From Arcobacter sp. (GTDB lineage: Bacteria; Campylobacterota; Campylobacteria; Campylobacterales; Arcobacteraceae), in contig DQSS01000257.1 of the NCBI GenBank assembly GCA_015663165.1, forward strand, positions 1 through 36,377: a stretch of DNA of 36,377 bases, read 5' to 3'. Positions 8,998 through 32,356 of this stretch are shown here, piece after piece. Position 1 is the first letter of the stretch. Each line of letters begins with the position of its first letter. Under the pieces are notes generated by a model. The model had not been told where the DNA came from. It saw only the letters and a list, made by a program, of their open reading frames with translations, and did no database searches. A program made the position numbers and the translations under genes.

Positions 8998-9741
8998 TTA
9001 AGTATAAAGCCCGCCATTTACTTTTAATACTTCTCCTGTAATATAAGTAGAATGGTCACTTAGTAAAAATGCTACAGCATCCGCTACTTCTTTTGCTTCA
9101 CCAAATCTTTTAAGTGGTATATTTCTTGTATATTCATCTTTTACTTCTTGCTTTAGTTCATCAGTCATATCAGTTCTAATAAACCCTGGAGTTACTGCAT
9201 TGAATCTTATAGCTCTAGCACTTCCTTCTTTTGCAAACGCTTTAGTCATAGTGTTTACTCCACCTTTAGATGCAGAATAATTTGTTTGACCTGGATTTCC
9301 CATTTCTCCTACTATTGAAGAGATATTTACAACTGCTCCAAATTTCTTTTTACTCATAGTTTTAAGTGCATCTCTACATCCAATAAATGTAGATGTCAAG
9401 TTTGCACCAATTACATCGTTGAAGTCTTGAAGTGACATTCTTATTGCTAGTTTATCCTTTGTAATTCCTGCATTGTTTACAAGATAAGATAAAGCTCCAT
9501 CACTGTCAATTATTATTTTAATCATACTAGCCCAATCAGCTTCAATAGATACATCACCTTTAATAACAGCAGCAACTCCACCAGCAGCCTCAATCTCTGC
9601 TTTAACTGCATCAGCAAGTTCAGGTTTACTTCTATAGTTAATCCATACTTTTAGTCCATAAGTTGCAAGTTCTTTTGCAACCTCTGCTCCTATACCTTTA
9701 CTTGCGCCTGTAACTAATACGTTTGTTCCTGTGAATTTCAT
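8998..9741 (-). CDS. fabG: 3-oxoacyl-[acyl-carrier-protein] reductase
   Basis: NADPH-dependent reductase of the fatty-acid elongation cycle, short-chain dehydrogenase family. The nucleotide-binding GASKGIG loop (12-18), NNAG (89-92) and the catalytic S142, Y155 and K159 (YSASK) are all present. The C-terminal substrate and tetramer region ends in [11 protein letters not shown]. The length of 247 is typical. SDR sequences can be misassigned, but the adjacent acpP and fabF make FabG very likely. It starts 18 bp downstream of the aguAB fusion, so the fatty-acid genes appear to be read through from the que/agu block. Confidence 0.95.
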
Positions 9742-9759: not shown

Positions 9760-11664
9760 TTAGTCTATATATCTTTTTGTTATATCATTATAGCATTCTA
9801 TTCTTCTATCTCTCAAAAATGGCCACCATCTTCTTACATTTTCAGTATTTTTTAAATCTATTGGGGCATAAAGTATCTGTTCTTTTTGATTTGAAGCATG
9901 AGCTAAAAATTCTCCTTGTGCACCTAGTACAAAAGAATTTCCCCAAAAGTTTGTACCTTTTAGAATATTGCTATCATCTTTTTCAAAGCCAGTTCTATTT
10001 GCAGTTATTATTGGAATATTATTTGCAATACTATGACCTCTTTGTACCGTAATCCAAGCATCTAGTTGTTTTTGTTGTTCTTCTTTGCTATCATCTTCAA
10101 ACCATCCAATAGCTGTAGGGTATATTAATATATCGGCACCCTTTAAGCACATTAGTCTTGCAGCTTCAGGATACCACTGATCCCAACAAATTAAAACACC
10201 AAGTTTACCAACACTTGTTTGAATAGGTTCAAATCCTAAATCCCCAGGTGTAAAATAAAACTTTTCGTAAAAGCCAGGATCATCAGGAATATGCATCTTT
10301 CTATATTTACCTGCAATACTTCCATCTTTTTCAAATACGACTGCTGTATTATGATAAAGTCCTGCTGCTCTTTTTTCAAAAAGTGAAGTTACTAATACTA
10401 TACTATTTTCTAAAGCAATATTTGACCAAAATTTTAAATCCTCTTCCCAAGAATTAGCTAAGTCAAATGTATCAACATTTTCATTCTGACAAAAATAATG
10501 TGTTTGATGAAGTTCTTGAAGTACTACTAATAAAGCACCATTTTTACTTGCTTCTTGTATTTTAAATACAGTTTGTTTTATAGTTTCTTCTTTTGAAGAA
10601 TAATACTTTTGTTGTATTAGTGCTGTTTTTAAAATAGAATTATTTTCTTCTTCTTTAGTTATTCTTGGATATTGCATAGTTACGCAATGCAAACTTCCAT
10701 GTTGTTTTATCAAAGTCGTACAGTCAATACCTATTACATATCTTGAAGGAAAAATCTTTTTGAATATATCTAAAGCTTTGTTGTCATTTATATCGTTGTA
10801 TGTTGGCACTAGAACAGCACCATTTATAATTAGAAAGTTTGCATATGTTGCAGGTAATCTTTCATCGTCTTCATATTTTGCTTGTATTGTTGGTAAGGCT
10901 ATTAAATTATAAGGTTCATTTGAGGAGTTTGTAAATGTTTGAAGTTCTTCTTTCATTTTTTTTAGTTCATCATACTGTTCATCATTTTCATCATCGCAAG
11001 ATTGATAAACAATAGTATTTTTACAAACAAATCTTGCAAGGGTATCTATATGCGCATCTGTATCATCACCAATAAGTTCACCATGATTTAACCACAGTAT
11101 TTTAGATGCTCCAAGAGTATCTTTAAGTTTTTTTTCTATTGTAGTTTTTGATAAAGTTGGATTTCTATTTTTTTCTAATAAACATTTACTGGTAGTCAAA
11201 ATAGTACCATTCCCATCACTATCAATAGAGCCACCTTCAAGAACTAATTGTATTGATTGGTGAGAATATTCTTTTAGCATACCTTTTAATTTTAGTTTGC
11301 TTGTGATTTGATTGTCTAGTTTAGAGTCAAATTTATTTCCCCATGCGTTAAATTTGAAATCTAGTACGGTAAAGATATCTTCGTTTTGTACTGTAATTCC
11401 ACCAAAATCCCTAGACCAAGTATCGTTTGAATCTATACGAATAAATGTTAAGTTATTTTTATATTCAAAATCTTCAAAATAAGATTTTGTTTTACTAAGA
11501 TTTTTTGCAACTATTAAACACTTTTGATACTTGGCAATTGTTTTTGCTATATTTATAAAAGTATCTATAGCATTATCTAAGTATTCATTCCAATCAGTAT
11601 TTTCATGTGGAAATACCAACTGTACAAATTCTTGATCTTCCCATTGGGCTGGTAGTCTAGTCAT
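9760..11664 (-). CDS. Fused agmatine deiminase / N-carbamoylputrescine amidase
   Basis: One 634-residue frame holds two consecutive enzymes of the agmatine-to-putrescine route. Residues 1 to about 335 are a Porphyromonas-type peptidyl-arginine-deiminase family agmatine deiminase. Visible there are WSRDFGG (D86), LEGGSIDSDGNGT (142-154), DTDAHIDTLARF (H205) and the catalytic Cys in GSLHC (C327). Residues about 344-634 are a nitrilase-superfamily amidase with the E-K-C triad E384 (LQELH), K456 (YRKMH) and C493 (LICWDQW). The first domain would make N-carbamoylputrescine and ammonia; the second splits it to putrescine, CO2 and ammonia. The linker is only about 10 residues (RITKEEENNS). The gene starts with ATG after AGGAG, lies 16 bp after queE and 18 bp before fabG. 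Both catalytic sets look intact, so bifunctional activity is inferred. Confidence 0.92.
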   Translation of the reverse strand: MTRLPAQWEDQEFVQLVFPHENTDWNEYLDNAIDTFINIAKTIAKYQKCLIVAKNLSKTKSYFEDFEYKNNLTFIRIDSNDTWSRDFGGITVQNEDIFTVLDFKFNAWGNKFDSKLDNQITSKLKLKGMLKEYSHQSIQLVLEGGSIDSDGNGTILTTSKCLLEKNRNPTLSKTTIEKKLKDTLGASKILWLNHGELIGDDTDAHIDTLARFVCKNTIVYQSCDDENDEQYDELKKMKEELQTFTNSSNEPYNLIALPTIQAKYEDDERLPATYANFLIINGAVLVPTYNDINDNKALDIFKKIFPSRYVIGIDCTTLIKQHGSLHCVTMQYPRITKEEENNSILKTALIQQKYYSSKEETIKQTVFKIQEASKNGALLVVLQELHQTHYFCQNENVDTFDLANSWEEDLKFWSNIALENSIVLVTSLFEKRAAGLYHNTAVVFEKDGSIAGKYRKMHIPDDPGFYEKFYFTPGDLGFEPIQTSVGKLGVLICWDQWYPEAARLMCLKGADILIYPTAIGWFEDDSKEEQQKQLDAWITVQRGHSIANNIPIITANRTGFEKDDSNILKGTNFWGNSFVLGAQGEFLAHASNQKEQILYAPIDLKNTENVRRWWPFLRDRRIECYNDITKRYID

Positions 11665-11680
11665 AAGTATCTCCTTTTAG

Positions 11681-12433
11681 TTAAACGCCTCTTTTATTGT
11701 TCCATACTCTTATATGTAGTCTATCTGAATATTTATAACCTTTTTGTATTGCAAACTCTATAACTTCAAGTGAGTTATTGTCTATAAGTTCAGCTGTATC
11801 ACCAAGTGGCATTATATATACATCGCAAGGCGGTAAATCTTCTAGTATATAATCTATCTCTTCATTTGCTTTTTTTATAGAATCTTTAGATACTACAAAT
11901 TTTAAATAACTTTCTTTATTGAAATTAATTATTTTTTTAAGTGTATCTTTATTTATTCTTTTTGATAAAACCTCACCACTATTACTAAGTTTAACACTCA
12001 TAGAAAATAAAATCTTTTTTTGCCACTCATGTGTAAGTTCTATATTTATAGATGCATTTGTTTCTATAGTGATTTCATAGTCATGACTTATATAAAAATG
12101 TAAAAACTTTTGAAATTCAACATCATTCCAATATAAAAGTGGTTCACCACCAGTTATAACTATATCAACTTTATATTTTGGAAGAATTAAATTTATCTTT
12201 TCTATTAATGGTTTTGAGCTTTCATATGAATCCCAAGAATCTTTAAATGCACTATCACTAGCATAGTAAGAATCACAAGAGTATTTTTTGATACCACTTG
12301 GAGTTTCATATTCTACTTCAAAGCCTGAACATTGCATATTGCATTTACCAAATCTTACAAAAACTGAAGGATTTCCTACTCTTTTACCTTCACCTTGAAT
12401 TGTTGGTCCAAATATTTCATTTACTTCAAGCAT
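11681..12433 (-). CDS. queE: 7-carboxy-7-deazaguanine synthase (radical SAM)
   Basis: Radical SAM enzyme converting 6-carboxytetrahydropterin to 7-carboxy-7-deazaguanine on the way to preQ0 and queuosine. The opening (EIFGPTIQGEGKRVGNPSVFVR) is the QueE signature, followed by C31 and C35 (GKCNMQC) and a third cysteine at C53 (SCDSYYA). The third cluster cysteine is thus separated by an insert rather than in the standard C-x3-C-x2-C spacing. VITGGEPLL follows as the SAM-binding GGE motif. The 250-aa length fits the longer QueE group. The ATG overlaps the end of queD by 8 bp with no clear ribosome site of its own, indicating coupling. queC, queD and queE are together here. Confidence 0.93.
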   Translation of the reverse strand: MLEVNEIFGPTIQGEGKRVGNPSVFVRFGKCNMQCSGFEVEYETPSGIKKYSCDSYYASDSAFKDSWDSYESSKPLIEKINLILPKYKVDIVITGGEPLLYWNDVEFQKFLHFYISHDYEITIETNASINIELTHEWQKKILFSMSVKLSNSGEVLSKRINKDTLKKIINFNKESYLKFVVSKDSIKKANEEIDYILEDLPPCDVYIMPLGDTAELIDNNSLEVIEFAIQKGYKYSDRLHIRVWNNKRGV

Positions 12434-19576: not shown

Positions 19577-21340
19577 CTATGCTTCTATTTGTATATTGTT
19601 TTTACTATTTTTTGCTTTGTCTAGGGCTTCATTTAGTTTTTCTAAAAGCGTTGTGTAGTTATCTTCATCTGAAATTTGGCTAATTCCTAAATGTAACTTA
19701 GTAGATGAATCAATTTTAGTATGAAAATTTTCATCTATTTTTTGTGCTAAAATTAATGCACCACTTAATGATGTGTTTGAAGTAAGTATGATTAGTTTGT
19801 TGTCATTTTTTATACCAAAATAATCATTTGTTCTAATCATATTTTTGATTATATTACCAAGTATTTTATATGTAAGTTTATCATAGTTTGAATTGTTTGT
19901 ATCTATAAGTATACATGAAAATTCTGTTTTATATCTGCGTGATCTTTGAATCTCTTTTTCCATTATATCTTCTATAAATGTTTGAGTATATGCACCAGTT
20001 GTAAAGTCTTTTTCTATTAAGTCAATTAGATTCTTTTTTGAAATTGTATTTGAAGAATGGCTATCTTGAAGTTCAATATCATTTTTATATTCTTTAGAAT
20101 AAACCTTTATATGTAGCATCAATAAAATTGTATAAATAAATGTTGATAATAAAACATTACCAATTATGATAGCTTCAAATACCTCTTTATATATAAAAGT
20201 TTGAGGTAAAGAATGAACCATAATAATAGCTAAAGCACCTTTTGTACCAGAAAGGCTAAGGGCAAATATCCATCTATTTGGAAGAGAAAGTTTTTTTATC
20301 ATTGTAAATACTGCAAAATATCTAATAATAGATGTGATTAAAAATACAATTAATATCTCTTGATAGTATGTAAAAAGTAACTCTATATCTATAATATTTG
20401 CAACTATCATAAATACAATAGCATTTGCAAATATTCCTATAAATTCTGATTCTTTTTTATATTCTCTAAAATTCTTTTTTGTAAGTGCAGGTACTTTTTT
20501 CAGTAAAGTAAGAAGCGGTGGTTCTGTTTTATTAAAATATGAGTTTATATTTTCTTCTTGATTTGTTGAAATATCTTTTGCAATTAGATATTTAAATGTT
20601 AAAACTGATGTAACTATAGAAAGTATTCCAGCAATATTAAAATGCTCAGCAGTCATAAATGATATTATAACAATAAGGTAAATAACTAAAAATTGATCAA
20701 ATGAATTTTTTAATATTTTTATGGTGTAGTATCCAATATATGCTATAAATATACCAATAAAAGTAGATAAGAATAGTACTTTTATTAAAGTAGTATTTAA
20801 ATCTAAGATATTAATTTCTCCACTTGAAATCATAGGTAATGCAACAAAATAGTAAATTATAAGGGCTGTTACATCATTAAATAATGATTCTGATTCTGCA
20901 TATATTTTTAGTTTTTCAGGTAATTTAAACTTTGACATGATACTTGCAACAGTAATTGCATCAGTTGCCATAAGCATAGAAAATAAAGCGATAAGCATAC
21001 CAATACTAAATGAATATTGAGGTAATAAATAAGGAGTAACAAATATAGCTATACTAATAGATACAATAACAGCTACAAAAGCTAAATAAATAATTTCTTT
21101 ATAGTGTTTTTTAAGTTCATTGCTAGATATATTTAAAATATCAGGTAATAAAATAACAGGAAGCATCAAATACAATATCTCATCAAAGTTATCATTTGAA
21201 ATACTTAATAGTTCAGGGTAAACATAAGATAAAACAAAAGAAAATACAATAAGAGTAAGAGTTGATGGAATTTTTGTAGCAGTCTCTACTATTCTTGATA
21301 GTATTATAAAGATAAGTAAAATTGTAAACAACAATAGCAC
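19577..21340 (-). CDS. CPA-type cation/proton antiporter with degenerate GGDEF-like C-terminal domain
   Basis: 587 residues in two parts. Residues 1 to about 410 form about 12 membrane helices of the monovalent cation:proton antiporter (NhaP/Kef-like) family. They carry MATDAITVASIM (124-135), ESESLFNDVTALI (149-161), which contains the transport-type ND, and LSGTKGALAI (363-372). After a cytosolic linker, residues about 438-587 resemble a diguanylate cyclase domain: DFTTGAYTQTFIEDIMEKEIQRSRRYKTEFSCILID looks like its N-terminal half. The GGDEF signature position reads KNDNKLII, however, so catalysis is unlikely. The start is GTG, 2 bp after the preceding radical SAM gene stop, with a distant GAGGA. 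A regulatory or dimerising role for the tail is inferred. Confidence 0.85.
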   Translation of the reverse strand: MLLLFTILLIFIILSRIVETATKIPSTLTLIVFSFVLSYVYPELLSISNDNFDEILYLMLPVILLPDILNISSNELKKHYKEIIYLAFVAVIVSISIAIFVTPYLLPQYSFSIGMLIALFSMLMATDAITVASIMSKFKLPEKLKIYAESESLFNDVTALIIYYFVALPMISSGEINILDLNTTLIKVLFLSTFIGIFIAYIGYYTIKILKNSFDQFLVIYLIVIISFMTAEHFNIAGILSIVTSVLTFKYLIAKDISTNQEENINSYFNKTEPPLLTLLKKVPALTKKNFREYKKESEFIGIFANAIVFMIVANIIDIELLFTYYQEILIVFLITSIIRYFAVFTMIKKLSLPNRWIFALSLSGTKGALAIIMVHSLPQTFIYKEVFEAIIIGNVLLSTFIYTILLMLHIKVYSKEYKNDIELQDSHSSNTISKKNLIDLIEKDFTTGAYTQTFIEDIMEKEIQRSRRYKTEFSCILIDTNNSNYDKLTYKILGNIIKNMIRTNDYFGIKNDNKLIILTSNTSLSGALILAQKIDENFHTKIDSSTKLHLGISQISDEDNYTTLLEKLNEALDKAKNSKNNIQIEA

Positions 21341-31282: not shown

Positions 31283-32356
31283 TTAGTTTGTAAATGCCCA
31301 CTCATAAAATGGAATGATATCACAAGCTATTTCATTTAGGTGCATTGTATCATAATTGCTAATTGTAACTATGGTGATATTTTCTATATACAATCCATCA
31401 ATAGATTTTAAAATCTTATTTGAAATATTAGAAAATAACATTTTATTAAAAAATGGCATTGATATAACAATAGTATTTTCATTTGGCAAATAAAAATCAA
31501 CACCATCCATATAATAGATATTATTAAACTTTGAGTACAGTTCTAAGAAAACCATATTTGTAAATATATTAGCAAATTTCTTTTCATATAAAACAACATC
31601 AATCAAAGCATGATTAAAACAAAATATTTTTTTAACAGCTTTTGGCTGATTATATTTTTGACATAAAAAAATAATAGAATTTTGTTCATACTCTTTTATC
31701 TTATTATAAAAAAAATCTTTTGATATTTTAATATCTTTTTTTAATATACCATACAACCAATAAGGGGATTTTATTTCAGCTGATGATTTTATAAGTAGTT
31801 TTAGTATTTCAAGAGAAGTGGCATTGTTTTCATATAGTTCTAAAAGTTCTTGATTTCTATGTTGTTTTTTAAATTCTTTATATTCTATAATTTCCGCAAT
31901 ATTACCATACTTTAAAAAACTATTAAAACTATTAGTTGTATTTTGATGTTTTGTATCAAATAATATATATTCTTCAAAATCTAAAGGTAATACTTCAAGT
32001 AGTTCAAAATTTTCTAGTTCAAAATTATTTTTTGTACTCAATATTATAGAATCAACTTTTGGTAAAATAATATGGTTGCTATAGTTTTCAATAACTAATA
32101 TCTTAATATCATTAGTATTTATAAATTCTTGAAGGTCTTCTTTTGAAAAATCTAAATATCTAAAATCATTCTCATCTATATATAGATAATTTTTATCTTC
32201 ATTTAATGATAAGTAATCATAAATCAAAAAAGTTTTGCCAGATGATTTAGCACCATATAAAAGTGTATTGTAGTTATTTATTTTAATCTTTCTTTCAAAA
32301 AAAGTAGGAAAATTTATTTTATTGTCATATATATTTTGTAATGTTTTCATAAACAA
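31283..32356 (-). CDS. AAA ATPase of the AAA_14/DUF4143 (COG1373-like) type, divergent
   Basis: A 357-residue protein with a Walker A GAKSSGKT at 35-42. A Walker B-like strand IKILVIEN (84-91) has no aspartate at the expected place. PLDFEEYILFD (125-134) matches the conserved PLSFxEF-type element of COG1373 ATPases. Near the C-terminus YYMDGVDFYLP (281-291) looks like the degenerate nuclease-like core (EVDF) of DUF4143. Members are widespread but their function is poorly understood. The start is ambiguous: TTG at 32356 or ATG at 32350, with AAGGA upstream of both. It is divergent from the S10 operon and cotranscribed with rnhB. Very low GC is seen in this gene, but similar to nearby non-ribosomal genes. 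Confidence 0.75.
   Translation of the reverse strand: MFMKTLQNIYDNKINFPTFFERKIKINNYNTLLYGAKSSGKTFLIYDYLSLNEDKNYLYIDENDFRYLDFSKEDLQEFINTNDIKILVIENYSNHIILPKVDSIILSTKNNFELENFELLEVLPLDFEEYILFDTKHQNTTNSFNSFLKYGNIAEIIEYKEFKKQHRNQELLELYENNATSLEILKLLIKSSAEIKSPYWLYGILKKDIKISKDFFYNKIKEYEQNSIIFLCQKYNQPKAVKKIFCFNHALIDVVLYEKKFANIFTNMVFLELYSKFNNIYYMDGVDFYLPNENTIVISMPFFNKMLFSNISNKILKSIDGLYIENITIVTISNYDTMHLNEIACDIIPFYEWAFTN

Follow-up and report, generated by a model that had tools for sequence, protein, structure and literature searches.

Separate aguA–aguB pairs of Campylobacterota, Bacteroidota and Gammaproteobacteria encode an agmatine deiminase (AguA) and an N-carbamoylputrescine amidase (AguB), from the same two families and in the same order, often in the same frame and with only a stop between them. 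Among the closest enzymes of known structure are the agmatine deiminases of H. pylori (3hvm) and C. jejuni (6b2w), free-standing proteins of about 330 residues, and two likewise free-standing amidases, the carbon-nitrogen hydrolase of H. pylori G27 (6mg6) and the Medicago N-carbamoylputrescine amidohydrolase MtCPA (5h8i), which forms octamers. The catalytic set of the Medicago deiminase consists of Cys366, Asp226 and His224 (PMC6447857), and that of MtCPA of a Glu48, Lys121 and Cys158 triad together with a second glutamate, Glu132 (PMC4812014).

Here we describe a gene of an Arcobacter-like genome in which, unlike in any of these enzymes, the deiminase and the amidase are domains of one protein. 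The gene lies in a window of 36,377 nucleotides (assembly GCA_015663165.1, contig DQSS01000257.1), by which we mean the whole stretch of DNA analysed. Judging from sequence comparison, we are confident that it is an AguA–AguB fusion of single origin, joined by an in-frame linker, which would act as a two-step enzyme from agmatine to putrescine and probably as the sole such route of the cell; rigid channelling between the two active sites is not indicated.

Two catalytic domains in one reading frame

The fused gene occupies positions 9760–11664 of the minus strand, where a continuous frame beginning with an ATG at 11664 encodes 634 residues. The initial annotation had given this span and length correctly and had left out the strand; numerous stops interrupt this stretch on the plus strand. 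The start is preceded by a Shine-Dalgarno sequence, AGGAG (11671–11675, minus strand), with a duplex energy of -7.1 kcal/mol. The neighbours on the same strand, both named from sequence, are a queE-like gene upstream (11681–12433) and a fabG-like gene downstream (8998–9741).

Two full-length Pfam matches divide the protein. Residues 1–333 (10666–11664, minus strand) match PAD_porph (PF04371; E 2.4e-118, 395 bits, model positions 1–321 of 321), and residues 345–634 (9763–10632, minus strand) match CN_hydrolase (PF00795; E 1.1e-55, model positions 1–256 of 256), the matches spanning residues 2–332 and 345–611, respectively; the query lacked the first methionine, so that its own numbers are one lower. 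Between the two lies a linker of 11 residues (334–344, RITKEEENNSI; 10633–10665, minus strand), delimited by comparison of the junction with split relatives and close to the 10 or so residues first estimated. The top NCBIfam model for the first half is agmatine deiminase (TIGR03380), with a score of 227 versus a cut-off of 381.8, and N-carbamoylputrescine amidase (TIGR03381) is by far the top-scoring amidase model for the second, at 282.5 versus 410.25; both scores are below the equivalog cut-offs. These scores notwithstanding, the deiminase half is 43–49% identical to the H. pylori (~49%) and C. jejuni (~43%) agmatine deiminase structures and resembles them in fold, as the amidase half does 6mg6 (62%) and MtCPA (~37%).

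The catalytic residues C327, E384, K456 and C493, which the initial annotation had singled out, are at the positions given there, and H205, D207 and E467, which it had not named, are also present. H205, D207 and C327 of the deiminase half correspond to His224-x-Asp226 and Cys366 of MtAIH (PMC6447857), while the Glu-Lys-Cys triad of the amidase half is that of MtCPA (PMC4812014). Nine of nine key positions (D86, E143, H205, D207, C327, E384, K456, E467 and C493) are invariant in 20 aligned Campylobacteria homologues. Each half is an ordinary member of a known family, the first of the guanidine-modifying enzymes (AguA/AIH) and the second of the nitrilase superfamily (AguB).

The same fusion is found in a second species, ‘Arcobacter sp. 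CSMAG_1765’ (G003; L054/L006), as a frame of 630 residues with no stop, with a Shine-Dalgarno duplex of -9.9 kcal/mol at its own start and with 79% protein identity to that of the window genome (G000), a figure that is lower for the deiminase half (76%) than for the amidase half (85%). One uninterrupted frame is thus conserved in two species. The differences between the two genes fall mostly on third codon positions, and a simple pN/pS between them gave 0.26 for AguA, 0.20 for AguB and 0.30 for the neighbouring gene, which argues that both halves are being maintained by purifying selection. The linker, 10 residues long in G003 by virtue of a single whole-codon gap, is the least conserved part (pN/pS 0.82, over 11 codons only).

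Two other genes in the window deserve mention. The protein of 19577–21340 (minus strand) combines a sodium/hydrogen exchanger membrane domain (PF00999, residues 9–406) with a C-terminal domain of the GGDEF family (PF00990, E 3e-7, residues 445–582), and is probably not a working diguanylate cyclase, since no GGDEF motif is evident; that of 31283–32356 (minus strand) is a predicted AAA-type ATPase with a borderline AAA_14 match (27.1 bits versus a cut-off of 27).

Coupling of the two halves and their place in the pathway

From one translation start, the gene would give rise to a protein of two ordinary catalytic domains, the first converting agmatine to N-carbamoylputrescine and ammonia, and the second converting N-carbamoylputrescine to putrescine, CO2 and ammonia. 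That one chain carries consecutive reactions, and that the fusion was kept in two species, could be taken to suggest a bifunctional single-chain ‘putrescine synthase’, recently evolved in one Arcobacter-like lineage, in which N-carbamoylputrescine is passed between active sites. We consider such a hand-over unlikely. The structure model of the fused protein (mean pLDDT 85.5, pTM 0.58) contains two well-formed domains, but linker residues 336–341 have pLDDT values below 50 and are predicted to be disordered, and at this pTM the placement of the domains relative to one another is uncertain. For these two reasons the model does not support substrate channelling, which the initial annotation had proposed; the linker looks like a simple tether, and tethering alone does not confer channelling. 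Moreover, amidases of the nitrilase fold form dimers and octamers of their own (PMC4812014), and agmatine deiminases occur as monomers, dimers or tetramers (PMC6447857), so that the varied oligomers of both families imply no fixed tunnel. If channelling were nevertheless real, the split relatives within the genus would offer a natural before-and-after comparison.

The tethered protein likely provides co-production of both activities at 1:1 as well as their co-localisation. The fixed 1:1 stoichiometry put forward at the outset follows from a single polypeptide as long as there is neither processing nor internal initiation. The possibility that translation also begins internally and yields some amidase on its own, leaving the ratio unfixed, is raised by an in-frame ATG, which is codon 330 of the gene in G000 and codon 327 in G003. 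It appears quite improbable, as the Shine-Dalgarno duplex at these codons reaches only -0.2 and -1.6 kcal/mol, which leaves codon 330 with no usable ribosome-binding site, and the methionine belongs to the VTMQ-P stretch that ends the deiminase and is common to split genes, so that its presence needs no other reason.

The pathway context is consistent with both activities. SpeA, the arginine decarboxylase, is encoded in 8/8 genomes of the genus and would act upstream of the fused enzyme, whereas the agmatinase/arginase family is found in none of the eight. Downstream would follow the carboxyspermidine route, with nspC (carboxynorspermidine decarboxylase) likewise present in all eight genomes, fragmented in one; nspC serves spermidine synthesis in this phylum. 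The amidase half has the context characteristic of an AguB, namely an adjoining aguA, the presence of SpeA and the absence of agmatinase. The fused gene is the only PAD_porph gene of the window genome, and only two weaker CN_hydrolase matches occur elsewhere in it. With both domains under purifying selection, SpeA present and agmatinase absent, the fused protein is probably the cell's only route from agmatine to putrescine.

Scores below the NCBIfam equivalog cut-offs might be read as a sign that one half is dead or repurposed and that the fused protein has a single activity. There is very little chance of this, given complete catalytic sets and similar purifying selection in both halves, in a genome that has no other PAD_porph copy and lacks agmatinase. 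That the protein is bifunctional, as first surmised from its motifs, is very likely on account of the intact catalytic sets, the selection on both halves, the loss of the aguB start signals (see below) and the lack of a second copy or an agmatinase.

Probable origin from an adjacent gene pair

Within the genus of eight genomes, two carry the fusion and six (G001, G002 and G004–G007) carry separate adjacent aguA and aguB genes at the same locus, between the same upstream (250 aa) and downstream (247 aa) neighbours. In each of the eight, the 250-aa gene immediately precedes the fusion or aguA, and the contig of G003 is too short to show the whole downstream neighbour. Two of the split pairs share a frame, with one stop between the genes in G002 and two in G005.

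At the junction, where the initial annotation had advised looking for sequencing error (10640–10660), there is neither a frameshift nor a stop, and G003 independently shows an open junction. Comparison with split relatives indicates that the linker originated from the former AguA tail and the intergenic stretch. The aguB start codon of split relatives is ATG, GTG or TTG; both fused genes have TTA at the matching codon, that of L345 in the window (10630–10632, minus strand). Likewise, seven split genomes, the six of the genus and G093, have a strong Shine-Dalgarno duplex before aguB, ranging from -5.9 to -9.9 kcal/mol, and its energy is about 0 in both fused genes. From the missing stop, the lost duplex and the TTA codon it follows that both fused genes retain neither the stop codon of aguA nor a ribosome-binding site or start codon for aguB.

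Removal of the stop between two separate genes by a sequencing or assembly error had to be considered, because the window genome was assembled from a metagenome in 398 contigs with 6% contamination (G003 is a metagenome assembly too) and because, with relatives having in-frame aguA-stop-aguB neighbours, one wrong base could mimic a fusion. Such an error is scarcely credible and was discarded: a different species, assembled separately, is likewise open at the junction, with a linker that has diverged and shows no gap other than a whole codon, and one error could not also have removed the start codon and ribosome-binding site of aguB in both genes.

The two fused genes group together in trees of the concatenated sequences (bootstrap 100), of aguA alone (83) and of aguB alone (98), a grouping that, at full support in the concatenated tree, is consistent with one fusion event. 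We therefore favour a single fusion event, placed in the common ancestor of the two Arcobacter-like species and involving an adjacent aguA–aguB pair of the same order, such as relatives still carry. Loss of the aguA stop and of the aguB ribosome-binding site and start left the in-frame linker of 11 (in G003, 10) residues. The fusion is apparently recent.

A separate observation concerns the genus itself. In the concatenated (95) and aguB (98) trees, the fused genes are closer to the split genes of G043 (L010), from another genus of the family, than to those of their congeners, which means that at this locus the genus is not a natural one, or else that the locus has moved between genera. The split arrangement also varies elsewhere, as in Helicobacter-like genomes (L149 3213–5972, L150, L038 3486–6215) a cation efflux gene (CDF, the family being named in L149) is located between aguA and aguB, and overlaps both of them in L038.

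Rarity of the fusion and relation to known systems

Full-protein searches returned the window gene as the only stop-free full-length match in 397 genomes of Campylobacteria, a sample that does not include G003, and found no fusion in Bacteroidia (395 genomes), Gammaproteobacteria (369 genomes, with 20 doubtful regions fetched), Bacilli (331 genomes) or the phylum to which a Desulfuromonadales genome belongs (317 genomes); these surveys are samples that could miss a fusion with a long insert or one in an unsampled phylum. When 84,980 species were scanned with a pattern, only the contig of G003 was fused among the best 80 loci, and the other 79 were unfused. Plasmid and phage collections yielded nothing better than split pairs, and IMG/VR no match. 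Within the sampled genomes, the fusion is rare and found in one lineage only. The surveys rule it out as the ordinary form of the family and, with two fused genomes out of eight in the genus, agree with the initial premise that two consecutive enzymes usually encoded by separate genes are here joined.

Adjacent aguA and aguB genes in the same frame, with one or a few stops between them, are present in many Bacteroidota, Gammaproteobacteria and Bacilli (L161–L165, L171–L174, L195–L198 and many of L055–L100). The raw material for fusion is therefore common, though fusion is rare. A naive full-length search mistakes such pairs for fusions: the full-length-looking matches in G002, G005 and G093 read through a stop and represent split genes. 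Open frames of ~600–950 aa in Helicobacter-like and gammaproteobacterial rows are not evidence of fusion either, since every region fetched (the 20 gammaproteobacterial ones and several others) consists of separate genes. A supposed three-part fusion in G117 proved to have no such frame.

No description of an AguA–AguB fusion was found in the literature searched, a body that left most subscription journals outside its scope. A similar idea was reportedly raised in early plant work on a multifunctional ‘putrescine synthase’. The paper on the Medicago deiminase mentions a soybean deiminase of 70 kDa, its sequence being unknown (PMC6447857). In some bacteria only, polyamine enzymes are combined in one chain, as in the decarboxylase-arginase/agmatinase fusion of Fusobacteriaceae (PMC8503589) and in SpeD-SpeD fusions (PMC10407285), but the enzymes involved are different. 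The nearest counterparts of the fused gene remain the split pairs of its own genus, which occupy the same locus; unlike these and other separate aguA–aguB pairs, it no longer has the stop, or the ribosome-binding site and start of the second gene, and encodes one protein. The passage from an operon pair to one gene, very likely bifunctional, is thus documented alongside near relatives of the genus that remain split, and comparing these congeners with the two fused species would show cleanly whether flux or stability changes when consecutive enzymes are fused. Set against the known systems, the fusion represents a rare change to a well-known pathway, the pathway itself being unchanged.
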